A stretch of 26,546 nt of DNA from a virus, in the IMG/VR virus record IMGVR_UViG_3300020183_005970, positions 1-26,546 of that record. One strand, 5' to 3'. The position numbers and the translations under genes were made by a program. Shown piece after piece: positions 4,233-25,856 of this stretch (positions are counted from its first letter, which is position 1; every line of letters begins with the position of its first letter). The notes under the pieces are model-generated. The model did no database searches. It had not been told where the DNA came from and was given only the letters and a program-made list of their open reading frames with translations.

Positions 4233-4999
4233 GTCATGCGTCTTTCTATGTCTGATTCCTCGCAATTTTCACCGTACTGTATCTCTACGATCTTGAGCGG
4301 GTTAGGGTCCTCATTGACCAACTGGTGCCATTCGTGGGTGGCGACATGTAGATACTCGTGTCGCTTGTATCGATCACGCAGTTCCATGTCGGTAGAGGTC
4401 GTGCTCAGGGTGTATACCGTGGCTTCTCCTGAGGTCACCAACCAGAATTCTGCTCGTTGTTCGTGTCTCTGCATGCTGAGTGCGGCACCAGGATCCACGG
4501 TAAGTTCTTTGACTTTGACGCCAGGTGCTTCGTGTAATACACGGTAATATCCCCAGGGTCTGCGAGTCTGTGGTGCTTTCCATTCTTCCAAGATCCACGA
4601 TGAGGAATTGGCCTTGTCAAAACCACCTACTCCAAACACGAATTTCGTGTTGTCATCGGTCACGTCCATCTCGGGTATGTTTTCGTCGGTACGGTCACCA
4701 CCATTGGCGAATATGATCTGATCTTGTGGATAGCTCTGGCGCACCATCTGGATGGCCCGACGGGCCGTGCCATCTGTGTCATCGAAATCTATGACAAAAT
4801 CCACGCCCTGTATGTTGCGTATGATGTTGGCCCGTTCCGACAAAGGCATAAAACTACGGCCTTTTTTGCGGGTCAACCAGGCATCGCTGTTGACACCTAC
4901 CACTAGGATGTCTCCTAATTTCTGGGCCGCTTGGATGTAGGCCAGATGTCCAGAATGCACAGGATCAAAACCACCAGTTATCAATACTATTTTTTTCAT
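4229..4999 (-). CDS. Nucleotidyltransferase (HldE/RfaE-like) fused to mannose-6-phosphate-isomerase-type cupin
   Basis: The protein has 256 residues starting MKKIVLITGGFDPVHSGH. GGFDPVHSGH (residues 9-18) is the HxGH active site of cytidylyltransferase-like enzymes such as the adenylyltransferase half of HldE, which joins a nucleotide to a sugar phosphate. From about residue 147 the sequence changes to RPWGYYRVLHEAPGVKVKEL, then MQRHEQRAEFWLV (H179) and THEWHQLVN (H222, H225). This is the cupin of type II phosphomannose isomerase/GDP-mannose pyrophosphorylase. One polypeptide may therefore activate a sugar and isomerise or bind one. The start is preceded by a 20-base gap, has no close ribosome-binding site, and has a GTAAATA box five bases upstream. 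The gene is coupled by ATGA to the two-domain glycosyltransferase. Confidence 0.82.
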   Translation of the reverse strand: MKKIVLITGGFDPVHSGHLAYIQAAQKLGDILVVGVNSDAWLTRKKGRSFMPLSERANIIRNIQGVDFVIDFDDTDGTARRAIQMVRQSYPQDQIIFANGGDRTDENIPEMDVTDDNTKFVFGVGGFDKANSSSWILEEWKAPQTRRPWGYYRVLHEAPGVKVKELTVDPGAALSMQRHEQRAEFWLVTSGEATVYTLSTTSTDMELRDRYKRHEYLHVATHEWHQLVNEDPNPLKIVEIQYGENCEESDIERRMT

Positions 5000-5004
5000 G
5001 CTGA

Positions 5005-5012
5005 TATTTACG
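5005..5012 (-). promoter_or_regulatory. TAAATA box five bases before start of nucleotidyltransferase-cupin gene
   Basis: On the minus strand the sequence reads CGTAAATA, then five bases, then the ATG at 4999. It resembles the T4-type late core TATAAATA. At T4-like spacing, transcription would begin at or next to the start codon. Similar boxes precede several other uncoupled genes here. This is a motif match only. Confidence 0.3.
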
Positions 5013-5019
5013 TCATCCT

Positions 5020-5568
5020 CTATCCATAGAAACGGAAACCACGCTGTGCGTAGAAATATTCCATGCAAAACAAACGTTCTACCTGATAAGCATGGGGTTC
5101 GTTGATCTCTCGCGGATCATAGAAGGTAGGAGTCTGCTTCCAATCAAACCCGTACACATCCACTGATGCTGTTTCACAGTGATCTAGATAATCCAGTAGC
5201 ATGATACCGGTAGACGGCTTTTGTCCTTTGTGCAGCCCCAGACGCTCGTGCAGGATCTGTTTGTATTCGTCTGGGTAACCCAGTGTTCCTGATACTGGGG
5301 CATGTTTATTGGCCACCTGCATCATGTGAGAGATGTTGAATCCGCCCATGGATTCCTGATACACACGGGTCTTTTTCATGAAAGCATATTTGATGAATAT
5401 CAGAACGTCGGTCCTAGCACCGTGGCTTTCGGGCCTGTTCACCATGGCACCCAAGTTGATCCTGCATACCACGTCGTGAGAATCTATATCTGGTCCGTAT
5501 CTGAGATCGAACAGAGACGCGGCGTTGCCTACCACGGCCACGTTTCGATCTTGGAACCATGACTTCAT
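5020..5568 (-). CDS. GT29 (sialyltransferase)-like protein
   Basis: The protein has 182 residues. VAVVGNAASLFDLRYGPDIDSHDVVCRINLG (about residues 10-40, here described as a long block) resembles the large sialyl motif that binds CMP-sugar. KPSTGIMLLDYLDHC (117-131) resembles the small motif. H159-A-Y-Q-V-E164 fits the very short HxxxxE motif with the catalytic histidine. It is much shorter than eukaryotic GT29 enzymes (usually over 300 residues with a membrane anchor) and lacks any anchor, as expected for a phage protein. The start at 5568 is fixed by an ATGA overlap with the upstream methyltransferase. Transfer of a sialic-acid-like (nonulosonic) sugar is a family-based inference. No CMP-sialate synthesis gene is visible in the window. 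Confidence 0.7.
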   Translation of the reverse strand: MKSWFQDRNVAVVGNAASLFDLRYGPDIDSHDVVCRINLGAMVNRPESHGARTDVLIFIKYAFMKKTRVYQESMGGFNISHMMQVANKHAPVSGTLGYPDEYKQILHERLGLHKGQKPSTGIMLLDYLDHCETASVDVYGFDWKQTPTFYDPREINEPHAYQVERLFCMEYFYAQRGFRFYG

Positions 5569-6122
5569 CTGCGTGTCAGTATCACATCATATTTGCTGCC
5601 AAACAGCAGAGGATTTTTCTCTCTACGATCAAATTCTTCTATGCGTTCCCAGGCCATGCTCACGGGCATCACCGACAAGATACGATCTCGCCACCATGCG
5701 GGTTCTTCCACGATGAGATGTGCGTTCCGGCCATCGGGCAAGCGTTTCTTGGCCGGATGGCAAGCGATCCTAAGGAACGCACAGCGTTCGATCTTGCTGG
5801 CCAGCAATCGTAGCGTCTCGTCGAGATATTCGGGTTCGATGTGTTCTATAGCGTCTGTGCTTATGACAGCGTCAAAGGTCCTCGAAGGCATGTTGCTGTA
5901 AACAGGGTTGCCTGGATCATACCCCCAGCACTTGATCTCTGGGTGTTCTTTTTTCAGTTCTGCTATCAGGCCTCCCTTGCCACAACCAAAATCTAACACA
6001 GTAGTAGGTCGATATTCATCGAGGAATTTTCGTACCAATTTGTACTGTTTCCCATTAGCGAACTTGCCATTCTCATGCATGTTCTCCAGTTGTTGTTGAT
6101 AGTCTTTGTTTATGAGGCTCAT
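5565..6122 (-). CDS. Class I SAM-dependent methyltransferase
   Basis: The protein has 185 residues starting MSLINKDYQQQLENMHENGKF. Motif I, TVLDFGCGKGGL (41-52), and the post-motif segment GYDP, followed by FDAVISTDAIEHIEP (83-97), are the classical SAM-binding fold of small-molecule methyltransferases. The DAIEHI segment matches methyltransferases that act on metabolites rather than on DNA: no DPPY-type motif is present. Both ends overlap their neighbours as ATGA, placing the gene in the same operon as the oxygenase and the GT29-like protein. The substrate is unknown; methylation of a sugar or sugar-linked intermediate would fit the context. Confidence 0.82.
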   Translation of the reverse strand: MSLINKDYQQQLENMHENGKFANGKQYKLVRKFLDEYRPTTVLDFGCGKGGLIAELKKEHPEIKCWGYDPGNPVYSNMPSRTFDAVISTDAIEHIEPEYLDETLRLLASKIERCAFLRIACHPAKKRLPDGRNAHLIVEEPAWWRDRILSVMPVSMAWERIEEFDRREKNPLLFGSKYDVILTRR

Positions 6123-6853
6123 ATGGTGAATAACTTTCTGTCTTGATGTGCGTCGATGTTGACGTATCTACGCACGCAGTTCGCACCCTGTCTTGGTGTC
6201 ACGCCGTGGATGGTGTCGTGGGTGTTAAGGAACAAGATCATGGTGTTGGCCCGATATGGCACCGATCCTGCCTCGATCACATGATCTGTGTTGACTTCTC
6301 TGATGCCGGTGTATTCTGGTCGATCTATCTTTTTGCGGAACACATGTATGTCTCCACCTGTGCTGGCATCTTCGGGCTTTCGCATGTACAGCAGACCGGC
6401 GAACAGTTCTCGGCTGTTGTCGAGATGCGGAGTACGCACAGTTTCCTCCTGTAGACCATTGAGGACGAATTGCATCTCCATCTGCACCGTGCCCGGTTGT
6501 CCATGGTGTCTCTGAGACACCGGTGCCTGTTTAAGTGTGTCCAGCATGGTAGGATAGTATCGTTCCAAGGCCGGTTCAAAAAGATCCAGCACTCGATCTT
6601 TGAATGCCTGGCTGTTGTGATAGGCCACAAACTCCTGCCACAGCGGCGACACAGTTCCTGGAACAAATTCATGCTGACGATATCGTCGTGCCTGGAAACG
6701 TGTCTTTCCGTCTTGCATCATGTGCTGTTCGGGATATTCTGCTATCAATTGATCATAGAGTGTCTGTGGCAATGCATCGCGGATACAGAAGTAAGGACAA
6801 GGATCCTGTATGAGATCATCTTTGGTTATAGACTGTGTCACGTCAAGTTTCAT
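6119..6853 (-). CDS. 2-oxoglutarate/Fe(II)-dependent oxygenase
   Basis: The protein has 244 residues. The iron-binding facial triad is visible as H143-L-D145 (in RTPHLDNSRELFAGLLYM) and H216 (in NTHDTIHGVTPR). Basic residues downstream (R228/R229, in VRRYVN) suit 2-oxoglutarate binding. The double-stranded beta-helix pattern of the P4H/phytanoyl-type enzymes is consistent with the spacing of about 71 residues between the motifs. The enzyme would hydroxylate a substrate while decarboxylating 2-oxoglutarate. Such genes are frequent in aquatic T4-like phages. ATGA overlaps at both ends tie it to the methyltransferases on each side, so hydroxylation and methylation may act on the same molecule. 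The substrate is not evident. Confidence 0.82.
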   Translation of the reverse strand: MKLDVTQSITKDDLIQDPCPYFCIRDALPQTLYDQLIAEYPEQHMMQDGKTRFQARRYRQHEFVPGTVSPLWQEFVAYHNSQAFKDRVLDLFEPALERYYPTMLDTLKQAPVSQRHHGQPGTVQMEMQFVLNGLQEETVRTPHLDNSRELFAGLLYMRKPEDASTGGDIHVFRKKIDRPEYTGIREVNTDHVIEAGSVPYRANTMILFLNTHDTIHGVTPRQGANCVRRYVNIDAHQDRKLFTI

Positions 6854-8378: not shown

Positions 8379-8827
8379 ACTTGTATATCCTCCATTCCAG
8401 CAGTTCTCAATCTCACTATATGGCCCATTTGCCACTGCTTGGTATCAAGGCCTTTCATGATGCCTAACCAACGATTGCGTAGCAAGGCCACTTCATTGAT
8501 TATGGTTTCAAAGTCGATCACTTCGTCCTCACCGTCCACATACTTTTCAGCATCGCGGGCCGTGAGTGCCCGAGCATAGTTTTCTAAGTATTTCTGGAAG
8601 TGCTTCCTGCGTATCCTACGCAGTTGGATATTGAGGTAATTGAGTATGGCTTCGATTTCCTGGAGCTGGTTGAAACGATGCTCGGTGATGCCGGGCAGTT
8701 CCTTGATGTTGTGCTCTACATACCCGCCGATGCGACATTCTCGCTTGGCTTCGTCCAATTCACGCTCATAGTGTGCGATGAAATCCGGGATGGCACTGAG
8801 ACTGGTAGTTACTTTGCTATACCACAT
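8375..8827 (-). CDS. uvsY: Probable UvsY-like recombination mediator
   Basis: The protein has 150 residues and is highly charged and helical. It contains a central KYLENYARALTARDAEKYV segment and a C-terminal WLGIMKGLDTKQWQMGHIVRLRTAGMED segment. In T4 and cyanophage UvsY the C-terminal half has the same order: a Lys/Arg- and Tyr-rich helix, an acidic segment, then a helix followed by a short F/W-x-I-x-x-I-x-x-x-R motif. UvsY loads UvsX onto gp32-coated single-stranded DNA. The gene lies close to uvsX and gene 32, which supports the call, but the similarity is weak by eye and the name is tentative. An 11-base overlap with the upstream radical SAM gene and an ATGA overlap with the downstream methyltransferase are seen. 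Confidence 0.5.
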   Translation of the reverse strand: MWYSKVTTSLSAIPDFIAHYERELDEAKRECRIGGYVEHNIKELPGITEHRFNQLQEIEAILNYLNIQLRRIRRKHFQKYLENYARALTARDAEKYVDGEDEVIDFETIINEVALLRNRWLGIMKGLDTKQWQMGHIVRLRTAGMEDIQV

Positions 8828-10064
8828 GTCTGTACTCCACTAACCAGGGAAAAACAGTTTCCCAATTAGTGTTTCTTCTTCGATCTTTTTCATCTAAGAA
8901 TATTATAAGATCTCGTATACGAGAAAGATCAAACTTTGATTGGCATATTTCTTGGAGGATGCCGGACATATATTCTCGAGCATAAAAATCTTCATCGGTC
9001 TCGGCAGGCATGAGTTCTAATATTTTGTGTCGATCTTCTTCAAATACGTGCCCTGGAAATATACCAGCTTTGAGATATTCCGGACCGGGCTCGACTGATG
9101 AAAACCAATGACCAATTTTTCTTTCTGATCTCCACTCTGCTAATTTAATCAAGAGATCTGGCATGGTTTTTATCGTCAATGATGAGATGGTTTGATTGAT
9201 CATAAGATACAGCCATTTAAATTGCATAAGATATCTGAAATTGCTTTCCCATCTTTCTAAGTCTATTCCATATCGTACATATTCTTGTTGTGGTCCCCAA
9301 CAGTCAATGCTACAACTAATATCTATAGATTTTACTTTTTTACCAACTAATATTTTTTGCAATTTAGGAATAAAAGATTTAAGGCGGTCCGGATCTACCA
9401 TAAGATTCGTGACGATGTTGATCCGACAGTCCGGGTTAGGATATTCTTCGATCATTTCTAAAAATTTATCAAATTCATTTTGTATCAATGGTTCTCCACC
9501 GAGGATTCCTAACCTTTTGAGTTTAGGAAAACCTTCTGGAAACCAGTCCCAAAACAACGGCATGTACTGGCCGTACTGATTTTTTACAATTGGAAGGTGC
9601 ACTCCCTCTTTTCGAAACTCTCCAAATTTTTTGTTTTCTGATGTAATGGTACTGCTAAGACCATCAGGGCAATATAAACAACCCATGTTACAAAAACTAC
9701 TAAAATAAACTTCTAAAATTGTAGGATCCACTGAAGTTACTGATGCATCCAAATCTAATTCAGATGGATGCATATTAGGAATAGTAAGATGTCGCATGCG
9801 ATCGCTAGTTCCGCCTGCTTCCTCGACTCGGCGGCAATATTCGCAATTTGAATCTGGCCATTTTCCTTGTAGCATATCTATTCTATCTTGTATTTTTACC
9901 GGAGTATTATGGAAAGACTTAAAATCGTCCGGTGACACTTGACTAAATGCCGTTCTATGACAAGATCCAGTGACGCCGTTATTAAGATATAAGGTCGACC
10001 AGGCCCATTTCAGTTGACATGCAGTATCTGTCTTGATAGGAAAGAATTTTTTATCAGACACCAT
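8817..10064 (-). CDS. Radical SAM protein with N-terminal four-cysteine domain (1 of 4)
   Basis: The protein has 415 residues. CNMGCLYC (C125, C129, C132) is the CxxxCxxC site that holds the radical SAM [4Fe-4S] cluster. LGILGGEPL (185-193) is the GGE motif that contacts the SAM amino group. Ahead of the core, C16, C35, C74 and C77 form a C-x18-C-x38-C-x2-C pattern that could bind an auxiliary iron-sulfur cluster, as SPASM/twitch domains do but here at the N-terminus. The same layout recurs in three other proteins in this window. Such enzymes abstract hydrogen atoms from peptides, sugars or other substrates; the substrate here is unknown. The gene is clearly A+T-richer than the flanking UvsY-like and uvsX genes. 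It overlaps its neighbours by 11 bases on each side. Confidence 0.85.
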   Translation of the reverse strand: MVSDKKFFPIKTDTACQLKWAWSTLYLNNGVTGSCHRTAFSQVSPDDFKSFHNTPVKIQDRIDMLQGKWPDSNCEYCRRVEEAGGTSDRMRHLTIPNMHPSELDLDASVTSVDPTILEVYFSSFCNMGCLYCPDGLSSTITSENKKFGEFRKEGVHLPIVKNQYGQYMPLFWDWFPEGFPKLKRLGILGGEPLIQNEFDKFLEMIEEYPNPDCRINIVTNLMVDPDRLKSFIPKLQKILVGKKVKSIDISCSIDCWGPQQEYVRYGIDLERWESNFRYLMQFKWLYLMINQTISSLTIKTMPDLLIKLAEWRSERKIGHWFSSVEPGPEYLKAGIFPGHVFEEDRHKILELMPAETDEDFYAREYMSGILQEICQSKFDLSRIRDLIIFLDEKDRRRNTNWETVFPWLVEYRHVV

Positions 10065-11220
10065 GTAACCAAGATATAAAATTTTTAGGATAGATGTCTA
10101 AATTTAAGCCTCGTCTCTTTGCAAATTCTAACACATATTTTGAACAGTTTTTTCTCAGCGATTCGCTGACCGGGGAACTCATTGATTTAATTATTTCGTC
10201 TTGAAATTTAATTTCACTCGACAAGAAAGAATCAACTAAAATTTCTTTGCTTTTATCATCTAGCACATTAACACCTAGGAATTGCGGATCGCTGCAAAAT
10301 TCATATTTGATATGCCGATCTGGGTATTTCTCAGTGAATTCTCGGAATCCGAATAAAGTGAGATTAGTAAGAGTCGACGAAAAATACCATTCAAACCCTT
10401 GTTTCGTAATTTCATCGAGATTAGTTTTAAAAGTTTTCCAGGACGTACCAAAACGATTGAACTCGTAAAATTTTTCCAGATTCTCGGCACTAACTATCAA
10501 AGTCGTTTTTTTTGGATCTTCTATCTTTCCTAATAGAGAAACAAAACGACGAGGATCTACACCAAGCCCGGTGTAGATCACGACGTGGTTTTTTTGTGAT
10601 AATCGATTGACTATGTTTGTCAAATTGTTGTAAAGGAAGGTTTCTCCTCCAGTGAGATATATTTCTCCTGTTATCTGCAATTTATCAAGTTCTTCTAATA
10701 GAAAATTATACCCTTGACTTTTTTGATGTTCTGGCTGACTGATCCTTAATAATAAACGATCCATTGGATTAATCTTAAATCTGTCCTCGTCGAGATAAGG
10801 ACCGTGATCAACAATATCCTTTAGCCAAGCCGAGCTATACTGCTTACAACAATAAGAACAAGTCATGTTACATGTAGAGCCTAGCATAATATGTAATTCA
10901 CTCAAAGTTTCAACGGTGGAGGTCGTGAATTTCTGGTCTTGGGTCGGCATTAACATACGACGACTCACTGCTCCGGATCTTTCTGTTTTCCAACATACCG
11001 ATTCGCAACCGGGAACCGGCTGGCCAGATAACATTGTAGATCTTTCTTCTTGAAAATGAGGACTGTTAAAAATCTGGCCAGGATTATCCTTGATCCATTT
11101 TAGATCAATTTGTGTCGGTGCTACTGCACAACAGGAAAAATTTTGCCGCTTTTCTAGGTCAACAGACAGCCAGGTAAACTTTTCACTGCAATAATATCCA
11201 TCAGGTATCTTCAAAGACAT
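10054..11220 (-). CDS. Radical SAM protein with N-terminal four-cysteine domain (2 of 4)
   Basis: The protein has 388 residues. CNMTCSYCC (C117, C121, C124, with an extra C125) is the radical SAM cluster site. EIYLTGGETFLYNN (186-199) supplies GGE. N-terminal cysteines C11, C30/C31, C72 and C76 repeat the extra four-cysteine pattern seen in the neighbouring radical SAM protein. The following ~200 residues fit the rest of a partial TIM barrel plus a variable C-terminus. The start at 11220 overlaps the stop of the small acidic gene as TGATG, so the two are translationally coupled. The gene is A+T-rich compared with uvsX. Function unknown beyond radical SAM chemistry. Confidence 0.85.
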   Translation of the reverse strand: MSLKIPDGYYCSEKFTWLSVDLEKRQNFSCCAVAPTQIDLKWIKDNPGQIFNSPHFQEERSTMLSGQPVPGCESVCWKTERSGAVSRRMLMPTQDQKFTTSTVETLSELHIMLGSTCNMTCSYCCKQYSSAWLKDIVDHGPYLDEDRFKINPMDRLLLRISQPEHQKSQGYNFLLEELDKLQITGEIYLTGGETFLYNNLTNIVNRLSQKNHVVIYTGLGVDPRRFVSLLGKIEDPKKTTLIVSAENLEKFYEFNRFGTSWKTFKTNLDEITKQGFEWYFSSTLTNLTLFGFREFTEKYPDRHIKYEFCSDPQFLGVNVLDDKSKEILVDSFLSSEIKFQDEIIKSMSSPVSESLRKNCSKYVLEFAKRRGLNLDIYPKNFISWLHGV

Positions 11221-11456
11221 CAGTACTCTTCCTCTTCCTCTTCCTCTTCCTCTTCTTGAATGTTATCGTCTACTAGATATTCAGTTAATGCACGTTTAAT
11301 ATCTGCATCGCCCTTGAAAGCAGACTTGATTTCGTCGGCTTCTATATCATTGTCGATCAATATATTGACCACGGTCTCAGCAGCTTCTTCTCGGTCTACC
11401 GAACTGATGTATCGTTTGATTTCGCTCCATATTTCACTGGCTAGTGCTACTGGCAT
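11220..11456 (-). CDS. Small acidic protein with C-terminal poly-glutamate tail, directly downstream of uvsX
   Basis: The protein has 78 residues: MPVALASEIWSEIKRYI at the start, a helical middle, and a tail of ten glutamates followed by the final tyrosine. The tail is encoded by five GAAGAG-type hexamers. A GGAGG ribosome-binding site eight bases before the ATG lies inside the end of uvsX, only two bases from its stop. I recall related small proteins next to uvsX in other aquatic T4-like phages. A role linked to recombination is possible, for example an acidic tail that contacts DNA-binding proteins, but it is not demonstrated. The gene is coupled by TGATG to a radical SAM gene. Confidence 0.8.
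   Translation of the reverse strand: MPVALASEIWSEIKRYISSVDREEAAETVVNILIDNDIEADEIKSAFKGDADIKRALTEYLVDDNIQEEEEEEEEEEY
11226..11255. repeat. Five tandem CTCTTC hexamers (poly-Glu microsatellite)
   Basis: Five perfect copies of CTCTTC on the plus strand are followed by one degenerate unit. On the coding strand they encode alternating GAA/GAG glutamate codons at the end of the small acidic gene. The length is a multiple of three, so slippage by whole units keeps the frame and changes only the length of the acidic tail. Confidence 0.9.
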
Positions 11457-11458
11457 CC

Positions 11459-12517
11459 TTATTCCTCCGTTTCAGAATCTGCTGTACTTACCTCGGCCTT
11501 CTGATTTTGGAAGTCTCGCATGACTTTGTCCAGGCAACCATCCTCGTTGCTTTCCCACCCTTTGCGGAAGTATTTGATGATCTCTCCTTCGCTGGTCACG
11601 AACATGAGTTTGTTGCCGTCTTTCTTGAGCATGCCTTTTTTCTCAGCCAAGTCGGTAAGTCCGCTGTATGGATTCATGCCTGTCTCATACGGGATCTTGA
11701 CCTGCACGCCTTCAAAAGGCTTGGCATAGCGTGTTTTCATTACCTTGCAAGCCGAGCGGATGCCCATGACGTCGGAGATCTTGTTGCCATCCTCATCCTC
11801 TTTGAGTTTGAGTTTACGCATGGCCACCACGATCGATGATGCATAGATGAAGCCTTGTCCGCCCGAGATCTTGTCGTCAGGGTCAAACATATCTTGTGAT
11901 GCGTAGGTGTGATTGGTACACACCATGCCCACGTTGTAGTTACCGAACATGTTGACACAGTTACGCACCAGGGCAGTAAGACTCTTGGCTTTACGGCCTA
12001 AGTCACCTTTCATGTCACCGGCTTCAAACTGGTTCACGTCAGTGGGCGTGAGCAACATGCCCACAGAGTCTATGACGAACATGACTTTGGGACGCTCATC
12101 TGCAGGCAAGCCTTTGTAGTCTGCCATGAAGGTAGAGATGGTCTTGGCCACATCATCGATCATGGCCATGCTCAGTTTGAGCAGTTTCCGTTCATCTGTG
12201 TCTACGCCCAGGGCATGCAACCATGCTTCATCTAAGGCATTTTCTGTGTCGATCAAGACCACAAAGATTCCTTGTTCCTGGGCATGCTTGACGATGTTGC
12301 CGGAGCAGATATACGATTTGCCTGCACCACTTTCTCCCGCGAACACAGTGACCTTGCCAAGGGGTACACCCTTGTTGAAGTCGCCTGAGATCAGATAGTT
12401 CAGGGCAAAGTTGCCTGTGGAGATCCAGTCTGTGGGATCATTGAAACCGATGGAAAGCCCATCGATGGATTTGGTTATTTCCTTGCGGAATTTTGATACG
12501 TCAAAAGGTTTGCCCAT
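11459..12517 (-). CDS. uvsX: UvsX, RecA-like recombinase
   Basis: The protein has 352 residues. Walker A is GESGAGKS (61-68). Walker B is VMFVIDSVG (145-153). Further RecA/UvsX landmarks are LIDTENALDEAWL, the loop FEAGDMKGDLGRKAKSL and VCTNHTY. The C-terminus is acidic (ADSETEE). Like T4 UvsX (391 residues), it would form filaments on single-stranded DNA and drive strand invasion for recombination-dependent replication and repair, with gp32 and UvsY as partners. It has its own ribosome-binding site (GAGG, eight bases ahead) and a 12-base gap from the DUF2061 gene. The small acidic gene follows two bases after its stop. Confidence 0.96.
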   Translation of the reverse strand: MGKPFDVSKFRKEITKSIDGLSIGFNDPTDWISTGNFALNYLISGDFNKGVPLGKVTVFAGESGAGKSYICSGNIVKHAQEQGIFVVLIDTENALDEAWLHALGVDTDERKLLKLSMAMIDDVAKTISTFMADYKGLPADERPKVMFVIDSVGMLLTPTDVNQFEAGDMKGDLGRKAKSLTALVRNCVNMFGNYNVGMVCTNHTYASQDMFDPDDKISGGQGFIYASSIVVAMRKLKLKEDEDGNKISDVMGIRSACKVMKTRYAKPFEGVQVKIPYETGMNPYSGLTDLAEKKGMLKKDGNKLMFVTSEGEIIKYFRKGWESNEDGCLDKVMRDFQNQKAEVSTADSETEE

Positions 12518-12529
12518 TGTTTGCCTCTT

Positions 12530-12739
12530 CTAAAAATTTTTCCTGCCCCACTGGACGAGATTCCATGCACGCTCGTGGAAATAATAAAGCACGGTGTTCG
12601 CGATTACTTGTATTATAGCGATTGATCCGGCTATTGTAAAGTCTTTTGATATGATATAGGATATCAGGAACGTGCTCAGACTGCCTGTTATCCGCCAACT
12701 CACTGTTTTGAGCAGGCTACGTTTTGGTGTCTCATTCAA
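12530..12739 (-). CDS. DUF2061 small membrane protein, TTG start
   Basis: The protein has 69 residues: MNETPKRSLLKTVSWRITGSLS, then a hydrophobic stretch with two likely membrane segments, then YYFHERAWNLVQWGR. This is the full signature of DUF2061 (KR-SLLK-WR at the start, HERxWN-WGR at the end). An in-frame TAA lies seven codons upstream and no ATG or GTG is available before the conserved start, so TTG at 12739 must be used. It overlaps the end of the upstream kinase/nucleotidyltransferase gene by eight bases. In bacteria DUF2061 proteins occur near sulfate-assimilation genes. Here the partner is an APS-kinase-like gene, which is a suggestive coincidence. Molecular function unknown. Confidence 0.88.
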   Translation of the reverse strand: MNETPKRSLLKTVSWRITGSLSTFLISYIISKDFTIAGSIAIIQVIANTVLYYFHERAWNLVQWGRKNF

Positions 12740-13565
12740 GACCCATCTCTTTTCTTATCTTGGTGGCGGAAATCGAATGAGTGGCATCATCGAAGGTTTC
12801 TTGCTCGATCCGATAGCCCACGTCACGACCATAGGTGATGTTGGTGATGTTGGGTACTACCACTATCTCGTACTGCCCTTGATAAAGAGGATCTAGATCT
12901 TTGCGGATGGCGTCCTTGACTGCGGACCATGAAAAAGGATTGGATTGGTTCCATCCCTGGCAGTCACGGATCATGATGCAGACCTGGCCGGTCTTGGCGA
13001 TGGCACGTTCAAATAGAGCACGATGGCCTGCATGCCAGGGCTGCCAGCGACCCAGCATCTGTACCGTCTCCTTCCGCCAGTCAAACCTGGGACGGCGTCG
13101 ATCTTCTAGAATATGCGTGCCGACGAACTCGGCCCACTTTTCTGCGTTCTGTTCGGTGATGCGGAAATCGTACACTTCTGGGGGAACGAACATTTTGTTT
13201 GTGTCTTCATAACGCCCAGCGTCAATGGTATCCACCCAGATGGTCCAGTCTGCTTTGAAATTGTGACGCATTTCTGGCAGAGGTGCCACAAAATCGGCGA
13301 TGACGAAATCGTTGAAGAACGAATCTGCCAGTTCTCTCATGCGTATACTTTGTCTGATGCGACCTTCGTGGCTGAAATCCCAGTCGTTGTATTTCTTGCG
13401 TACATCGTCGGCATTGATCCATTTTACCGCTGCCCGGCTTGCCGCCTCAGTCTCGGCTGTGGCATGGAACAGCATGCTGTGTTCTTGCAGGTATTTCTGC
13501 AGGGCCTGTGCTAGGAAAGTCTTGCCCGAGCCGGGCAGACCCATGATTAGTATGCGTTGTGTCAT
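12732..13565 (-). CDS. Bifunctional P-loop kinase (APS-kinase-like) / HxGH nucleotidyltransferase
   Basis: The protein has 277 residues. The N-terminal half carries the P-loop GLPGSGKT (9-16), then WINADDVRKKYNDWDFSHEGRI and FVAPLPEMR, which follow the layout of adenylylsulfate (APS) kinase, the enzyme that makes the sulfate donor PAPS. The C-terminal half carries GRWQPWHAGH (172-181), SNPFSWSAVK and ISATKIRKEM (265-274), the active-site motifs of NMN adenylyltransferase and cytidylyltransferase-like enzymes. The order kinase then transferase is the reverse of NadR. Two roles are plausible: sulfate activation or NAD salvage; the motifs alone do not decide. It is coupled by ATGA to the upstream radical SAM gene and overlaps the DUF2061 gene. 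Confidence 0.82.
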   Translation of the reverse strand: MTQRILIMGLPGSGKTFLAQALQKYLQEHSMLFHATAETEAASRAAVKWINADDVRKKYNDWDFSHEGRIRQSIRMRELADSFFNDFVIADFVAPLPEMRHNFKADWTIWVDTIDAGRYEDTNKMFVPPEVYDFRITEQNAEKWAEFVGTHILEDRRRPRFDWRKETVQMLGRWQPWHAGHRALFERAIAKTGQVCIMIRDCQGWNQSNPFSWSAVKDAIRKDLDPLYQGQYEIVVVPNITNITYGRDVGYRIEQETFDDATHSISATKIRKEMGLE

Positions 13566-14716
13566 TTTGTGTCCTTTAGTGTGTACAGTCGAGGAAATAC
13601 CTGGCTGCTGTCTAGTCCTCGTCGCTTATCTAGTTTATCTAGGAAATCAAATGTGCGAGAAATATCCGGCAAAAAAGGTTGATCGATGTAGTCCAAGAGA
13701 TTTCGATAAGAATCCTCAAGCAGGTAACCCGGGCGTCGATCTATCCGTCGTGCAAGTTCTTGCCTGACCAGATCTATTTCGCCCGAGGGTAGATGTCTGA
13801 TGTTCAATTCTGTTGGAGTCAGCAGGGGACCAATCACAAAGCTGTTAGCATGGAATGACCTTGACTGCAAAAAATCCACGGTGTCAAATATGCTGAGATG
13901 ATTGAGAACGAAGTGCAACATGTTGAAAGTGATCTTGTGAGGAAGATCGCGTATGTGATCTAGATTCTCCAGGAAATCCTGCCAGGAACCGCCGTACCGG
14001 ACATATTCAAATTCTCGTTCCATCTCGTCTAGGCTTATGGTCCAATGCACGTTTTTGAATCCACAAATTTTTTCGAATATCTGTGTATCCACCTTGCTGA
14101 GATTGGTATTGATACGCAATACCACGCCGGGATTGACTGTTTTCAGCACCTCCAGCAACTCTAGGTTTTGCTTCATTAACAAGGGTTCTCCGCCAGCAAG
14201 ATACACATGTTTCAGATCTCTGGCCCGATCAAAGATGTATTTCTTGAAGGCATCGAGGTCCCGGTCCGACGGAGACACACGAGAATCATCGACTTCTATG
14301 GCCCATCTGCTGGAGAATTCTGCACTGCAATACACGCAGGCAAAATTACAAAGACGGCTCCATCTCACATCGATGGTGTGTAAATCATGATTGCCAGTGC
14401 GATAAGTTTCCAATGGAACCTGCTTCATCTCACGTATGTAAAAAATCCTATCGCTGATGATGTCAAAACTTTTTTTACCTCGTTCTAAATCGTAGCAAGG
14501 ACCACAACGAGGGCCGGGTTGACTCTGCGACATGAGTTCCTGTGTCTCTGTGTTGACCGGGCCAAGTAGAATTTCTTCTATGCTGTTGTCCTTGATGTTA
14601 CCGATGCTGCCAGAACTACGGATGCAGTTCTTGACGGTGCCGTCGAAGTTGTACATCAGTCCAGTCCATGGCATGGGACAGAACGTGCCATCGGTAAGTA
14701 TCTTTTTTGGTTCCAT
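13562..14716 (-). CDS. Radical SAM protein with N-terminal four-cysteine domain (3 of 4)
   Basis: The protein has 384 residues from the ATG at 14716 (MEPKKILTDGTFCPMPW). This start overlaps the upstream stop as TAATG and is preferred over a longer reading to 14767. CNFACVYC (C123, C127, C130) is the radical SAM site. VYLAGGEPLL (171-180) is the GGE motif. C13, C31, C71 and C74 make the N-terminal C-x17-C-x39-C-x2-C pattern. The start, CPMPW followed by FDGTVKNC and IGN, resembles the way SPASM domains begin, but precedes the catalytic core. The substrate is unknown. Base composition is close to that of neighbouring phage genes, unlike the first two radical SAM genes. Confidence 0.86.
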   Translation of the reverse strand: MEPKKILTDGTFCPMPWTGLMYNFDGTVKNCIRSSGSIGNIKDNSIEEILLGPVNTETQELMSQSQPGPRCGPCYDLERGKKSFDIISDRIFYIREMKQVPLETYRTGNHDLHTIDVRWSRLCNFACVYCSAEFSSRWAIEVDDSRVSPSDRDLDAFKKYIFDRARDLKHVYLAGGEPLLMKQNLELLEVLKTVNPGVVLRINTNLSKVDTQIFEKICGFKNVHWTISLDEMEREFEYVRYGGSWQDFLENLDHIRDLPHKITFNMLHFVLNHLSIFDTVDFLQSRSFHANSFVIGPLLTPTELNIRHLPSGEIDLVRQELARRIDRRPGYLLEDSYRNLLDYIDQPFLPDISRTFDFLDKLDKRRGLDSSQVFPRLYTLKDTK

Positions 14717-15282
14717 TAAATCTCCGGAACGCCTGGTCGGAATCCGAGACTGATCTCTTCGGGCCAAAGGTCAGAATTGACTGCGGAGATATAGAAGTCG
14801 CAGACATTTTTAACCCAGGCGTCTACATCGGCCGCGTCAATGCCGACCTGATTATAGTTCTGCGTGGCCACTGTTCCTGGCCGGACCAGGCACATGTTAC
14901 ACCAATCCTTGAGATGATAAAACGCATCTTCTAACGCTCTTTTCTGATTCTTATATTCTGCGATGCTGATCCAGTCCTGTCCAGGTATTGCCGGAACTCC
15001 TGTGTACTGTGTCATCATAGTAGAGATGTTCCAGATGATTTTAGATCTATCATTTTTCCAGTGTTCTGCTACCTTGTACAATAGTTCTGTCTGGGCATAT
15101 CCTGCCTGTGCATTGTTGATCCACATGTCACAAGGTACGATGTGTTCTACTATTCTAGGAATCACCTTGATATTATGACCGTCTCTTTTGCTCAACCCTA
15201 CGATTTCATGACCTCGAGATCCTAAATATTGAGCAAACGCTTTTCCGATGCCAGCGGTATGCCCTGTGATGGCTATTTTCAT
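14716..15282 (-). CDS. Short-chain dehydrogenase/reductase (SDR)
   Basis: The protein has 188 residues. TGHTAGIG (6-13) is the TGxxxGxG dinucleotide-binding motif. INNAQAG (55-61) corresponds to NNAG. NIS (85-87) is followed by Y110-KNQ-K114, the YxxxK catalytic pair. LVRPGTVAT matches the PG motif after the catalytic site. At 188 residues it is shorter than classical SDRs (about 250) and its C-terminal substrate loop is reduced. It would oxidise or reduce a hydroxyl or keto group with NAD(P)(H). It is flanked on both sides by radical SAM genes with ATGA and TAATG overlaps, so it probably acts in the same pathway. Confidence 0.85.
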   Translation of the reverse strand: MKIAITGHTAGIGKAFAQYLGSRGHEIVGLSKRDGHNIKVIPRIVEHIVPCDMWINNAQAGYAQTELLYKVAEHWKNDRSKIIWNISTMMTQYTGVPAIPGQDWISIAEYKNQKRALEDAFYHLKDWCNMCLVRPGTVATQNYNQVGIDAADVDAWVKNVCDFYISAVNSDLWPEEISLGFRPGVPEI

Positions 15283-16154
15283 GCTATACCTCTGAGTAAT
15301 TTTTGCCTGCGTATATATTCATCTCTGGCCCGGATGTCTGTGTTATCTAAACTGAGTTGCCATGGAGATTTGAGATAGGCAAAACTATGATCAATTCCGT
15401 GCTCGGATGCAAACGCTTGTATGTTTGGCAGGTCGTGATGATTTAGCACGCTGACCGTAGTCCATAAGTTTAGGTTAATTGGCATTTTTTTATAGGCCAT
15501 GACATTGTCATAAAACTTTTGCCAAGATATTGGCCATCTGAGCAGATCATGGACATCACCTATTCCATCGCAACTCACTGTGACCGTGACTTTGATTCCT
15601 TTTTTTGCGATATCACTCAGTTCGGTCAACACAGTGCTACAATTGGTATTAAGTCGGAGTGTTCTAAGATTAGGAGGTAAATCTTTTAGTATGGATTTGT
15701 AATTTTTGCTATAGGTCGGTTCACCACCATTGATATCAAGATGCAATATCCTGTCTTGAGGTAAACTCCGGAATCTATCTAAATTGTTTACGATAGGAAA
15801 GGTACGTCCTCGGAGGCTGCCAATCCTGGTGCTGAGATTTTCGTTACATGTCAGGCATGCCGCGTTGCAGAGATTGTCCAATACCCCAGCGACCTGTAGG
15901 TAATCTTTCTTGTCGGTACTCTCATGTAACTGTATAGAATAGCGTCTTATGCTATTGGGTTCTGTTTCTTGGCACCGCACGCACTCTGTGGGCCAGATAT
16001 CCTGCTCCATTTTAGATTTGGTTTCATGGAGCCACGGGCTAGATTCCATGTCATCTAGATTTTGAAACTCAGGAGGATCCACCATGTGCCCACAGCGGCT
16101 CACGGTCCCATTGGGATTGAAACGCACATAATGATCTAATCTTGGACAGTACAT
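15279..16154 (-). CDS. Radical SAM protein with N-terminal four-cysteine domain (4 of 4)
   Basis: The protein has 291 residues starting MYCPRLDHYVRFNPNGTVSRC. CNAACLTC (C96, C100, C103) is the radical SAM site. LDINGGEPTY (139-148) carries GGE. C3, C21, C58 and C61 form the N-terminal C-x17-C-x36-C-x2-C pattern shared with the other three. It is the shortest of the four and ends soon after the barrel, without the longer C-terminal extension. The start at 16154 overlaps the sulfotransferase-like gene by 19 bases. The gene is somewhat A+T-richer than gene 32 upstream. Substrate unknown. Confidence 0.84.
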   Translation of the reverse strand: MYCPRLDHYVRFNPNGTVSRCGHMVDPPEFQNLDDMESSPWLHETKSKMEQDIWPTECVRCQETEPNSIRRYSIQLHESTDKKDYLQVAGVLDNLCNAACLTCNENLSTRIGSLRGRTFPIVNNLDRFRSLPQDRILHLDINGGEPTYSKNYKSILKDLPPNLRTLRLNTNCSTVLTELSDIAKKGIKVTVTVSCDGIGDVHDLLRWPISWQKFYDNVMAYKKMPINLNLWTTVSVLNHHDLPNIQAFASEHGIDHSFAYLKSPWQLSLDNTDIRARDEYIRRQKLLRGIA

Positions 16155-20785: not shown

Positions 20786-20972
20786 TCGCGGGCTTTTCGC
20801 CAGTAAGATAAGGTCGGCTGAACCACAGCCGGAACCAACGATCAGTACCGGGCTGGATGTTGTTGCGTTTTTGCAAGCGAGATAGGACTGCGGCAGTCTT
20901 GCTGATGTTGGAGCCTGCCAGCGGTTTTTTGGAAGGAGGATATACTCCTTTGCCAAATTCTCGAAATCTCAT
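20781..20972 (-). CDS. Small protein of unknown function upstream of terminase
   Basis: The protein has 63 residues. It begins MRFREFGKGVYPPSKKPLAG and ends WFRLWFSRPYLTGEKPAK, with a basic, aromatic C-terminus. The ATGA overlap with the upstream nuclease gene and the eight-base gap to the terminase support it as a real gene. Its position recalls the small terminase gp16 of T4, but it is far too short (gp16 is about 160 residues) and lacks the expected coiled-coil region. I recall similar short WFRLWFS-type proteins in related phages but know no function. Confidence 0.75.
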   Translation of the reverse strand: MRFREFGKGVYPPSKKPLAGSNISKTAAVLSRLQKRNNIQPGTDRWFRLWFSRPYLTGEKPAK

Positions 20973-21679
20973 CGCACAGGAAATCGCATGCCCGTGGCCT
21001 GCTCTGCGGCCTGTACCGTGGTACGATATCGTGGCAGATCTGCCACGGGCAAGGCCGCGTTGGGCATGAGATAGGCCGTGGCATTACCCGAATTTTTGTT
21101 GATGATGACCTTGAATAGGTGCGTGGGTACGCCCACTCCTTGACCTATGGTAGCATGCCCAGGGGCGAATATGGCACCTGATATCACATACAGACTCTGA
21201 CCAGTGGCCTTGACCTGATCGCGGATCTGCATCTCTAGGATACGCCAGATGCCGCGGTTGTTGTTGGGCACTTGCGGTACCATGTTAGATAGGAAAAAAC
21301 TCTCTGACATGACAGCATCGTTCTGTGTATTGCCCGCGGCCGCACTCATATGACCGCGATCATAGGGCTGGCCAGCATAGTCCTGTAACTGACTACGGCA
21401 TTGCTGATGCACAGCAGGATCAGCACGGAAATCGTCCTTCCTGGAGGCTGGACCAGATATGGCCTGAATAGTGATATGCTCCATGACAGCCACAGGATTC
21501 TTTTTGGAGCAGGAATGTATCACGGCATAGTTGGTTTTACACAGTTCCTGATCACCGGCCTGAGCTTGGAATGTTGGAGCACCATACGCGGTATGCTGTG
21601 GACATTGCTGATTGATATTGGCCCATACCGAGCCCATCATAGTAAGAGTTAATAAGATTGCGGCTAAGATTGATTTCAT
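20969..21679 (-). CDS. Exported DNA/RNA non-specific endonuclease (NucA/Serratia-nuclease-like)
   Basis: The protein has 236 residues. The first ~20 residues (MKSILAAILLTLTMMGSVWA) form a typical Sec signal peptide with an A-x-A-like cleavage region, so the mature enzyme should leave the cytoplasm. YDRGHMSAAAGN (106-117) is the DRGH motif with catalytic H110. NMVPQVPNNNRGIWRILE (132-149) supplies the metal-binding asparagine and the downstream acidic residue of the beta-beta-alpha-metal nuclease fold. Several cysteines (26, 47, 57, 94) could form disulfides outside the cell. Such enzymes cut DNA and RNA without sequence preference. An AAGGA ribosome-binding site precedes the ATG. Its presence beside the terminase is unusual. 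Confidence 0.9.
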   Translation of the reverse strand: MKSILAAILLTLTMMGSVWANINQQCPQHTAYGAPTFQAQAGDQELCKTNYAVIHSCSKKNPVAVMEHITIQAISGPASRKDDFRADPAVHQQCRSQLQDYAGQPYDRGHMSAAAGNTQNDAVMSESFFLSNMVPQVPNNNRGIWRILEMQIRDQVKATGQSLYVISGAIFAPGHATIGQGVGVPTHLFKVIINKNSGNATAYLMPNAALPVADLPRYRTTVQAAEQATGMRFPVR

Positions 21680-22779: not shown

Positions 22780-23178
22780 TCATCTAGGATACCCGTTAAA
22801 TCCCTTGACGGGGCTGGTCTTGTTGACCCAATCAGCCTCGGTAGATCGATTGTCTGTGATCTTGTTCACACGGCCCGCACCCACTGATTTGGCCGCAGCA
22901 TTGATGATCGCCATGTCTACATCGGAGTATGTGGCCAACAGCGGATCTCCGGCAAACGCACCTGCGGGTTCGGTAGGGTAGTCCGGGGCACCGGCCATGG
23001 CTATGCCAAAACGCCACTGTGTGTAGGGACTTCCGCCCTGCTTGGTCTGGCTGATGTCGGGCATGCTGACCATACCTTTTAGAGCCGAACGTTGGCTCTT
23101 GGGCAGTTTGTTGCCGCTGGCCGGCACATCTTTAGCTGTACCGTATCTGGTTTCTGTCATGAATTCATTGGCACGCAT
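22780..23178 (-). CDS. Small protein with end-conserved tags (MRAxEF...NKTSPV-GYPR), paralogue A
   Basis: The protein has 132 residues from the ATG at 23178, which overlaps the upstream stop as TGATG (a TTG one codon earlier is also possible). The N-terminus MRANEFMTE and the C-terminus DWVNKTSPVKGFNGYPR match the ends of the gene at 24057-24437 (MRAREFITE; DYVNKTSPVRAFQGYPR), while the middles are unrelated by eye. The middle contains a GSPYTQWRFGIAMAGAPDYP segment. A short N-terminal tag of this type recurs, to my knowledge, in many small proteins of aquatic T4-like phages. A targeting role, for example into the prohead, is possible but unproven. Confidence 0.8.
   Translation of the reverse strand: MRANEFMTETRYGTAKDVPASGNKLPKSQRSALKGMVSMPDISQTKQGGSPYTQWRFGIAMAGAPDYPTEPAGAFAGDPLLATYSDVDMAIINAAAKSVGAGRVNKITDNRSTEADWVNKTSPVKGFNGYPR
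22811..22824. repeat. 14-base repeat, copy 1 (end of paralogue A)
   Basis: GGGCTGGTCTTGTT is identical at 24088-24101. Both copies encode the NKTSP part of the shared C-terminal tag in the two end-conserved genes. Conservation at base level points to fairly recent duplication or exchange of the tag. Confidence 0.75.
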
Positions 23179-24053
23179 CAAACATCCTTCATATGCATAT
23201 GGCCAAAAGGTGGATCACCACGTGTGTTCTGCCACAGCTGTCTATTACTTAGTATCTCGACCCAGACATTGGTATCAGGTCTGTTGAGATCCCAGAAATC
23301 AAAGTGCAGATTACTGCTGACCGGGCGGCAATACAAGGTGCGTTCTCGAGGCACACACAACAGTTGACAAGTGGTACGGAAAGCATTGGATTCTGTGCTG
23401 GTCCGCATGATATTGAGCTGAGGATTAGTGACATTGACCCGACAGAGCCCATCCACGAGATCTTCGGGTTCTCTGGCAGCATCCGCAACGGCCTGGGCCT
23501 GCAACATGCGGGCTTCGCTGGATATGCGATCCTGTGTCTGTTGAGCATCATCAGACCGCCGTTGGAAACTGGCCCAGGGCAGATACACACCATGATTGGT
23601 ACGAACCACGGTACGATTAGCAGGTATGCGTTTGACTTTGAATCTGTATGGTGCTGCACCGTCCTGATCGCTGGCCTCTATTAGATACAGCCTATACTGG
23701 TTAAAAACAATGGTGCAGCCCACTAACCGGTGGCGGATTAACACACGCACAGCAGCCAGAGGATCAGTCTCTAGCAAGGCTTCGGCTATGGCACGTCCAT
23801 CTGGACTGGTCTTGGCCTGGCCGGATTCAATGTCTGGTTCGTCTTCGCCGATATCCAGACTGGTGTTGAGTATGCTCACGCCACGGCTATTGATGCCTTC
23901 TTTGTAGCCCGTGACCAGATCATGCATCATCATCCTGCTGATGCCATGTTTGGTGTCTTCAATGAAATACAGCGTGGGGATATATCGTCGATCTCGATTC
24001 TTGGCCCCGGCCCACCCTATACCCGGAAAGTATTTGGCCACTATGACGCACAT
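23178..24053 (-). CDS. Ntn-hydrolase-like protein (choloylglycine hydrolase / C45 / TANGO2-like)
   Basis: The protein has 291 residues and begins MCVIVAKYFPGIGWAGAKNRDRRYIP. After removal of Met1, C2 would be the N-terminal nucleophile. NRDRR (19-23), INSRGVSILNTSL (54-66) and VVRTNHGVY (149-157) follow the order of active-site and oxyanion residues in linear-amide Ntn hydrolases (R/D near 20, N near 60, T-N-H). These enzymes cut amide bonds in acyl-amino compounds or act in self-processing. It has no signal peptide; the Cys is next to the initiator Met. It lies between the two end-conserved genes. The family call rests on motif order; the substrate is unknown. Confidence 0.65.
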   Translation of the reverse strand: MCVIVAKYFPGIGWAGAKNRDRRYIPTLYFIEDTKHGISRMMMHDLVTGYKEGINSRGVSILNTSLDIGEDEPDIESGQAKTSPDGRAIAEALLETDPLAAVRVLIRHRLVGCTIVFNQYRLYLIEASDQDGAAPYRFKVKRIPANRTVVRTNHGVYLPWASFQRRSDDAQQTQDRISSEARMLQAQAVADAAREPEDLVDGLCRVNVTNPQLNIMRTSTESNAFRTTCQLLCVPRERTLYCRPVSSNLHFDFWDLNRPDTNVWVEILSNRQLWQNTRGDPPFGHMHMKDV

Positions 24054-24056
24054 GAA

Positions 24057-24437
24057 CTATCTTGGATAGCCTTGGAATGCTCGCACCGGGCTGGTCTTGT
24101 TCACATAGTCAGGCTCGTAGCTGCCGGTATTGATATACTCGGTGGGTTGCATGCCTAGTTTCTTCATGATGGCTATCAATTTTTGTCGTTCAGATTCGGT
24201 ATAGGCCGAGAACACAGGGAGATTGCCGAAGAAACTGATGTCGTCGGTCTTGGCCAGTTCTTCGAGATCCATACCGACCAGGCTGGCTATTCTGTAGAAA
24301 TCATAGTAGCGGCCCCAGTAAGTGTCTCCTGCAGCAGAAGGACCAATAAGACCAGGATGTGCTACCTCGAATTCTTGGTTGGCCTTGGCTCGAGTACGAG
24401 CAATACCATTCTCGGTAATAAACTCACGAGCTCGCAT
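24057..24437 (-). CDS. Small protein with end-conserved tags, paralogue B
   Basis: The protein has 126 residues: MRAREFITENGIARTRAKANQ at the start and DYVNKTSPVRAFQGYPR at the end, matching the gene at 22780-23178 only at the two ends. The middle (DTYWGRYYDFYRIASLVGMDLEELAKTDD, then ESERQKLIAIMKKLGMQPTEY) looks like a compact helical domain. The stop lies three bases before the Ntn-hydrolase gene and the start one base after the stop of the upstream gene, so it is part of the late operon. Function unknown; a structural or prohead-associated role is inferred from tag and neighbours. Confidence 0.8.
   Translation of the reverse strand: MRAREFITENGIARTRAKANQEFEVAHPGLIGPSAAGDTYWGRYYDFYRIASLVGMDLEELAKTDDISFFGNLPVFSAYTESERQKLIAIMKKLGMQPTEYINTGSYEPDYVNKTSPVRAFQGYPR
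24088..24101. repeat. 14-base repeat, copy 2 (end of paralogue B)
   Basis: Identical to 22811-22824 and in the same orientation, 1277 bases away. It encodes the same part of the C-terminal tag, and the pair flanks the Ntn-hydrolase gene. Confidence 0.75.
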
Positions 24438-24728: not shown

Positions 24729-25856
24729 TTACCATGCACGGCACGACCAATAGCGTGCTTTGGTCCGCGGTCCTGGATTGTCGCAGTTATGACGAGCACG
24801 GAAACTCTTGCGGCGTGCCGGATTAGATTTTTTGATCTTCATGGTCTTCTGGCCAGCACGTCGGGCTGATGTACCACCGTGACCAAAGTTAACTTTCTTG
24901 ACATTACCAGTCTTAGGATCTTTCACATAGACTTTGAATTTCTTGACATCACCACGCATGGGCTTGCCCAGTGGAACATTTCGTCCTTGATATTCGGCTT
25001 CATCCAACTGCCCACCAAAGTCGTCGATCAGTCGGTCCATGACCAATTCCAACAGTTCTTCGTGATCGTCGTCATAGAGACGATGGTTGATAGAGATTTC
25101 ATTGGCTATCTTTTGTACCATCTGTCCAGCCGGCGAGGTTGAAGTCATGAGATCGTAGAGCCGATCATAATCTTCAGTATCGGCTATCTCTCCAAGATCG
25201 ATCGCGATGTCCTTCATCACGCCTTCGTCTACAGTCGTAGCCGTGGTAGGATCTTGTTCGGTGCCCACCGGGGCTAGATCCGCGGCTTTCTGTGCCAAGG
25301 GATCTGTGTGTGCGGCATTGGTTTCTGGTTGTTCTGGTGCGGTTTCATCCATCTGCCTGCACCCAGCCAGTTCCAGCATGCGGCTCATGAAATCTTCGGC
25401 TATGGGTTCTTCTTTTTTATCATCCATGGCCTGTCGCATACCTTTGCGGGCCAGATGCCGGGCCATGTGCTTGATAGGATTACCAAACTGGTCTTTGTGA
25501 GAAATATCTTGATCGGGCTCGAACGGCAGATCATCCTCATCCTCACCTCGACCGTAATCGCGTGTCTGAGGATGGCGATTGGGGTCTATACCTCCTTCGC
25601 CCAGGGCAAATCCGGTACCGCGTGTGTTGCCTACCGGACCATAACGAGCGATACGCTCTTGTAGCAGTCCTCTGCGATCCATGGCAGCAAAGGCCTGCTC
25701 TGATACGGCCAGAATGATGCGGCCCGCATCAGACTCAACTACCTGTGCTTCTACCAGCTCATCTGGGGCCAACTCAATGTCCAGTTCATCTCCGGCACGG
25801 GGATGATCGGCCCATTGTTCGGATTCGGCAAAGTAGTCACGTAGCGTCTTCATCAT
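24729..25856 (-). CDS. Large charged probable structural or prohead protein with conserved basic C-terminus
   Basis: The protein has 375 residues (or 374 from the second Met) starting MMKTLRDYFAESEQW. The N-terminal MKTLRDYFAE is the kind of short amphipathic leader found on many T4-like aquatic phage structural proteins. The first 290 residues are acidic, with an RMLELAGCRQ segment (about 160-169) similar to QILKLAGLEQ of the next gene. The last ~85 residues are strongly basic and look like a separate domain: GDVKKFKVYVKDPKTGNVKK, then KSNPARRKSFRARHNC, ending TKARYWSCRAW. I recall this C-terminus from other T4-like marine phages. A head-core, DNA-contacting or assembly role is inferred. The start overlaps the upstream stop as ATGA. 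Confidence 0.82.
   Translation of the reverse strand: MMKTLRDYFAESEQWADHPRAGDELDIELAPDELVEAQVVESDAGRIILAVSEQAFAAMDRRGLLQERIARYGPVGNTRGTGFALGEGGIDPNRHPQTRDYGRGEDEDDLPFEPDQDISHKDQFGNPIKHMARHLARKGMRQAMDDKKEEPIAEDFMSRMLELAGCRQMDETAPEQPETNAAHTDPLAQKAADLAPVGTEQDPTTATTVDEGVMKDIAIDLGEIADTEDYDRLYDLMTSTSPAGQMVQKIANEISINHRLYDDDHEELLELVMDRLIDDFGGQLDEAEYQGRNVPLGKPMRGDVKKFKVYVKDPKTGNVKKVNFGHGGTSARRAGQKTMKIKKSNPARRKSFRARHNCDNPGPRTKARYWSCRAW

Follow-up and report, generated by a model that had tools for sequence, protein, structure and literature searches.

The internal proteins of phage T4 (IPI, IPII, and IPIII, together with Alt) are the closest described counterparts of the proteins considered here. They are small, carry a leader of about 10 residues that ends in a gp21-type site, and in IPII and IPIII show the sequence E-F-I-x-E. 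The N-terminal 10 residues of IPIII are enough for packaging in T4, processing is set by residues 8 and 10, and gp21 cleaves after L/I-x-E (PMC9026906). IPI blocks a restriction enzyme, IPIII is required on one Escherichia coli host, and leaderless IPIII works in the cytoplasm (PMC9391042). In giant phages of the phiKZ/SPN3US type, many ejection proteins per virion are head proteins cut after Glu by the prohead protease, as proposed below; their sites are S/A-x-E (PMC9026906), unlike the leader reported here, and those parts of the literature that were covered describe no MRAxEF leader for them. Here, we report a locus from an uncultured virus with two genes, P1 and P2, whose paralogous products are probably housed inside the head of a large T4-like phage, where a leader would target them before they are cleaved.

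Locus and genomic context

The DNA analyzed (the window), a virus record of 26.5 kb (26,546 nucleotides), encodes a T4-like TerL, a gp32-like protein, and UvsX. By TerL, the closest isolated phages are PA5oct-like jumbo phages (53%). This fragment contains no genes for gp21 to gp23, and the exact T4 late-promoter motif TATAAATA was not found within it. P2, an Ntn hydrolase gene, and P1 follow one another in head-to-tail order, all three on the minus strand (a slash in a sequence marks a cleavage position, predicted for the window):

22780 to 23178, minus strand: P1, 132 amino acids from ATG, A type; its start overlaps the stop of the Ntn hydrolase gene (TGATG)
24057 to 24437, minus strand: P2, 126 amino acids
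23152 to 23178, minus strand: N-tag of P1, MRANEFMTE; prohead-protease cut predicted after E9
24411 to 24437, minus strand: N-tag of P2, MRAREFITE; cut predicted after E9
22783 to 22833, minus strand: C-tag of P1, DWVNKTSPVKGFNGYPR; S112, E114, S122, and P123 invariant (alignment A1)
24060 to 24110, minus strand: C-tag of P2, DYVNKTSPVRAFQGYPR; S116, P117, F121, G123, and Y124 invariant (alignment A2)
22811 to 22824 (P1) and 24088 to 24101 (P2), minus strand: 14-base run AACAAGACCAGCCC, identical in both genes, encoding NKTSP
23178 to 24053, minus strand: Ntn hydrolase of the AAT/C45 type, predicted Cys2 nucleophile; 291 amino acids, starting MCVIVAKYF...KNRDR
24729 to 25853, minus strand: leader-bearing neighbor, MKTLRDYFAE/S, with a C-terminal phrog_7595 domain

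Relationship of P1 and P2

The original prediction held that P1 and P2 share both ends around unrelated middles. The common ends, MRAxEF(I/M)TE and D(W/Y)VNKTSPV..F.GYPR, are real (a P2 query of the window returned P1 at an E value of 1.4e-8), as is the 14-base run; identical runs of such length arose in 0.4% of codon shuffles, and no extra explanation is needed because this one encodes the conserved NKTSP. The middles proved to belong to one family by linked BLAST and profile comparison. With tags stripped, P1 was connected to P2 through L183 (1.7e-18) and L203 (1.8e-8), the last step reaching P2 at 2.9e-21; single-linkage BLAST of the stripped middles united all 201 members at an E value of 1e-6, and P1 and P2 came apart at 1e-8. 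Stripped profiles of the P1-like kind (A) and of a third paralogue (B) matched with 97% probability (E value, 4e-11), and the stripped P2 profile matched B and A weakly, over the helix preceding the C-tag. Homologous middles in a profile search were the finding that the original prediction had itself named as evidence against it. These sequence comparisons make P1 and P2 sister genes, paralogous but diverged, in a family of small proteins from large, uncultured T4-like phages.

About 200 relatives were found in IMG/VR, often as overlapping tandem runs, with A, P2-like, and B as the three recurring kinds; viral contigs yielded 16 loci for P2, 55 for P1, and, in a further search, 80 loci retained out of 217 with an alignment. 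Isolated phages (INPHARED) held no relatives of P1, P2, or one distant member, another member having a single chance-level match, and no relatives were found in the bacterial genomes searched. Neither P1/P2 nor the Ntn hydrolase was recognizable in PA5oct by tblastn or profile search. Purifying selection acts on both P1 and P2 (dN/dS, ∼0.1). Comparison of orthologues shows faster change in the C-tag than in the middle, although the C-tag anchors S, P, F, G, and Y are mostly kept. The structure model of P1 was poor (pLDDT, 67.7; pTM, 0.29), and a fold comparison that used it gave no match. Nor did a profile of the stripped middle match anything in the 64- to 160-kb stretch of T4 (best E value, 2.2).

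The N-terminal leader

T4 IPII and IPIII start MKTYQEFIAE/A, with which MRAREFITE/N of P2 and MRANEFMTE/T of P1 align, one residue shorter; F6 and I/V/L/M7 of the leader correspond to the T4 EFI. All 201 tagged members have I, V, L, or M at position 7 and Glu at position 9, an invariance that is circular, as members were chosen by tag; P1 and P2 themselves had been identified independently of the tag. The closing site is I/L-x-E in 152 members and V/M-x-E in 49 (I-T-E in P2, M-T-E in P1). Among annotated T4 starts, a looser form of the motif matches ipII, ipIII, gp21, gp22, gp24, and inh, plus denV.

The leader extends beyond the family. Across 1,298 proteins from five relatives and the window, the motif starts 26 (13 of them non-family) against 2.6 expected (maximum of 9 in 300 shuffles), the motif having been fixed after part of these data had been seen. 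A scan with MRAxEFhxE found at least 101 open reading frames; among the matches listed, 48 belong to the family and 53 do not. The latter form at least 18 sequence clusters; some of these open reading frames may be chance matches, but several are arranged next to one another in runs (L243, L255, L259, L299, and L317). Across 49 leader-bearing non-family proteins among the matches listed, the domains included GH19 (6), GNAT, dCMP deaminase, DUF6321, and LysM.

Two conserved neighbors of the cassette also carry the leader, the phrog_7595-domain protein and a 202-amino-acid protein. The latter matches a PHROG virion structural family and, from residue 1, PA5oct EST35_0202, a phrog_14802-like virion structural protein found by electrospray ionization-tandem mass spectrometry (ESI-MS/MS); this PA5oct homologue (MKSFRDYYDASK) is without the Glu, and the leader motif was not enriched among MS-detected PA5oct proteins. 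A gp21-type protease (Peptidase_S77) is encoded in 7 of 16 relative records, and gp22 and Gp23 are likewise present in relatives, whose gp23 has a conserved L-x-E/N or L-x-E/S near residue 41.

Since the leader sits on unrelated proteins, targeting followed by removal by the prohead protease is its likely role. The original prediction of tags for targeting or processing is thus supported for the N-tag, which resembles a T4-type capsid-targeting leader with a prohead-protease site, and fails for the C-tag as a general tag. As judged from sequence, the N-tag is probably a portable head-targeting leader. The main competing reading, that it is the conserved start of another class of late proteins (for example, a site bound by a partner in the cytoplasm or in tail assembly) that stay outside the head, draws on the predicted enzymes and a twin-arginine translocation (TAT)-signal-like protein within the leader-bearing set. 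We consider this improbable given the match to the T4 capsid-targeting sequence and gp21 site, the gp21 and gp23 genes of relatives, and the neighbor homologous to a virion structural protein.

By likeness to T4, the 9-residue leader MRAxEFhxE would act like the T4 capsid-targeting sequence and dock the protein on the core of the prohead, and a gp21-type protease, encoded by relatives, would then cut after the invariant Glu (h-x-E/). The mature protein of about 117 to 123 residues would stay in the head and probably be injected with the DNA. A postinjection role like that of IPI or IPIII is possible; the domain is unrelated in sequence to theirs, and mature T4 internal proteins diverge from each other, whereas many phages share P1-type proteins that are strongly conserved, which would fit a structural role equally well or better. 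If the head-targeting reading is true, MRAxEFhxE makes it possible to tell, with nothing but the sequence, which proteins of uncultured jumbo T4-like phages are probable capsid cargo; it marks, besides the small-protein family, GH19 endolysins, acetyltransferases, a deaminase-domain protein, and uncharacterized proteins.

Individual leader-bearing open reading frames include a deaminase-domain protein between two paralogues (L229:2340-3209), a predicted GH19 endolysin (L175:3166-3993), and a predicted protein with two GNAT domains (L123:1894-3882). Two others (L273:818-2110 and L300:1909-2772; MRATEFLIERISSRVFHYTR...) resemble, by eye, starts of the ADP-ribosyltransferase type; Pfam returned nothing for L273.

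The C-terminal tail

Among the leader-bearing matches listed, the C-tag is confined to the family, being present on 31 of 48 family members and on 0 of 53 unrelated open reading frames. The last residues of A and P2 agree far more when both genes come from one genome than when they come from different genomes (GYTR/GYTR, GYGQ/GYGQ, GFK/GFKR, and GYE/GYE), and this covariation persists when a single genome is taken from each 75% Ntn identity cluster (14 genomes; p < 1/4000). Agreement is greatest for P2 and A; B often differs. GC content was rejected as the cause, as covariation holds within GC strata and after thinning. Synonymous codons of shared tag residues agree no more within genomes (0.415) than between them (0.412), for which reason gene conversion of the tags was rejected. 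Residues that covary without such codon likeness favor a common binding partner over recent gene conversion, and the pattern suggests co-adaptation of the tails, at the protein level, to a partner common to the paralogues.

One candidate link is an acidic prohead-core protein encoded beside gp21, which ends GVNTKSPL or similar in several relatives; its MS-detected PA5oct counterpart ends VDKESPLSKAPKK. In L181 and L221, the paralogues have lost SP and the core protein is also without it. The NxxSP likeness is only suggestive, since few independent lineages and families contribute, and could stem from the common ancestry of these genomes. Core and leader-bearing proteins were enriched in SP[VILMF] tails (Fisher p, 2e-6), a result given little weight because only two independent families are involved.

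In the reading that we favor, of leader-targeted and cleaved head proteins, the NxxSPVxxFxGYxR tail would remain on the protein after cleavage and act as a second docking motif, for a partner that the paralogues of a given phage share. More tentatively, it could be a second head-packaging or maturation signal whose partner also binds the acidic core protein (GVNTKSPL), making loading of this family a two-signal process; we rate this below an even chance. T4 internal proteins carry no C-terminal tag of this kind. If true, a family-specific tail that covaries within each phage points to a second head-assembly interaction, for which we know of no T4 counterpart. Relative to the original prediction, the leader is broader, the ideas on middles and recombination are weaker, and the C-tag is the newest part.

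Slightly less probable than the reading of the leader as another protein class is a propeptide role for the C-tag as well, in which the protease would also cut after the invariant S-x-E ahead of it. All 171 members that have SP carry Glu at position −8 relative to it, and 166 have Ser at −10. T4 Alt is processed at its two termini, the sites of phiKZ-type proteases are S/A-x-E, and C-terminal processing has a precedent (PMC9026906). At this site, however, P3 is Ser, whereas a T4-type protease should require a hydrophobic residue there, such as the Leu of gp23 (L-x-E) or the I/V/L/M of the leader (I/V/L/M-x-E).

Tails of other kinds were seen. In the L181, L185, L189, L190, L191, L192, L209, and L220 lineages, ...NKYG(V/I) replaces GYPR. 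Both paralogues of one phage (L204:3660-4348) end SPVAQWMKK, unlike GYPR, with synonymous differences between them.

The Ntn hydrolase and gene order

The gene between P1 and P2 was originally read as an Ntn hydrolase, which its structure model (pLDDT, 83.7; pTM, 0.86) bears out. The best Foldseek match was acyl-CoA:isopenicillin N acyltransferase (2x1e; E value, 8e-10), with further matches to NAAA and bile salt hydrolases; identity to the acyltransferase/C45 group is about 16%. Pfam AAT (PF03417) scored 16.2 bits, under the gathering score of 23.2, and matched weakly in 20 of 34 Ntn members. C2, N19 to R22, and N153 to G155 are invariant. By this model, the protein has an AAT/C45-like fold with a predicted N-terminal Cys nucleophile as in C45 hydrolases. 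It bears neither tag and would be a separate enzyme, usually co-inherited.

The order P2-Ntn-A was found in 51 of 73 loci, a redundant set (many overlap or share a contig) in which the 51 include two loci cut before A; with duplicates removed, 36 genomes have both A and P2. B lies after A or ahead of P2. Slots between successive paralogues, counted over the redundant loci, were adjacent in 100 cases, held an Ntn gene in 67, and held another gene in 13. These other genes include leader-bearing ones, with a deaminase domain (L229), TerB-like (L037; scanned from L128), and DUF6321 (L023), and, in L020 and L022, a homologue of the GATase-like neighbor of P1. Genes do enter the paralogue array; nothing links their entry to the tags.

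This bears on the proposal that homologous recombination between the conserved ends homogenizes the tags and swaps the enclosed gene. Tails match within genomes, and other genes, some leader-bearing, do lie between paralogues in a minority of phages (the deaminase-domain gene, for example), so a weaker form of swapping stands, minus the tags as its driver. With the Ntn hydrolase as the usual occupant between P2 and P1, and tag codons shared no more within genomes than between them, swapping by the ends is largely unsupported, and we consider it unlikely. Least probable of all, and rejected, is that the Ntn hydrolase acts on P1 and P2 to process their tags: co-occurrence is constant and the genes overlap, but P1-type genes have intact tags in a 102.8-kb record (a fragment; G021) with no Ntn gene, tandem pairs occur without one in L199 and L203, and AAT/C45 enzymes act on small amides.

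Other genes in and around the locus were also noted. A class-I glutamine amidotransferase-like gene adjoins P1 (22013 to 22732), and GATase-like genes lie between A and B paralogues at L020:6400-7140 and L022:6400-7146. A DNA/RNA nonspecific endonuclease (20969 to 21679; E value, 3e-45) has a secretion-signal-like N terminus. Four radical-SAM-domain proteins (phrog_14086 and phrog_1802) are encoded at 8817 to 16154, close to an epimerase-like gene, and a sugar-like set at 4229 to 6853 comprises a cytidylyltransferase fused to a mannose-6-phosphate isomerase-type cupin, a GT29-like sialyltransferase domain, a methyltransferase, and a 2OG-Fe(II) oxygenase-like protein.
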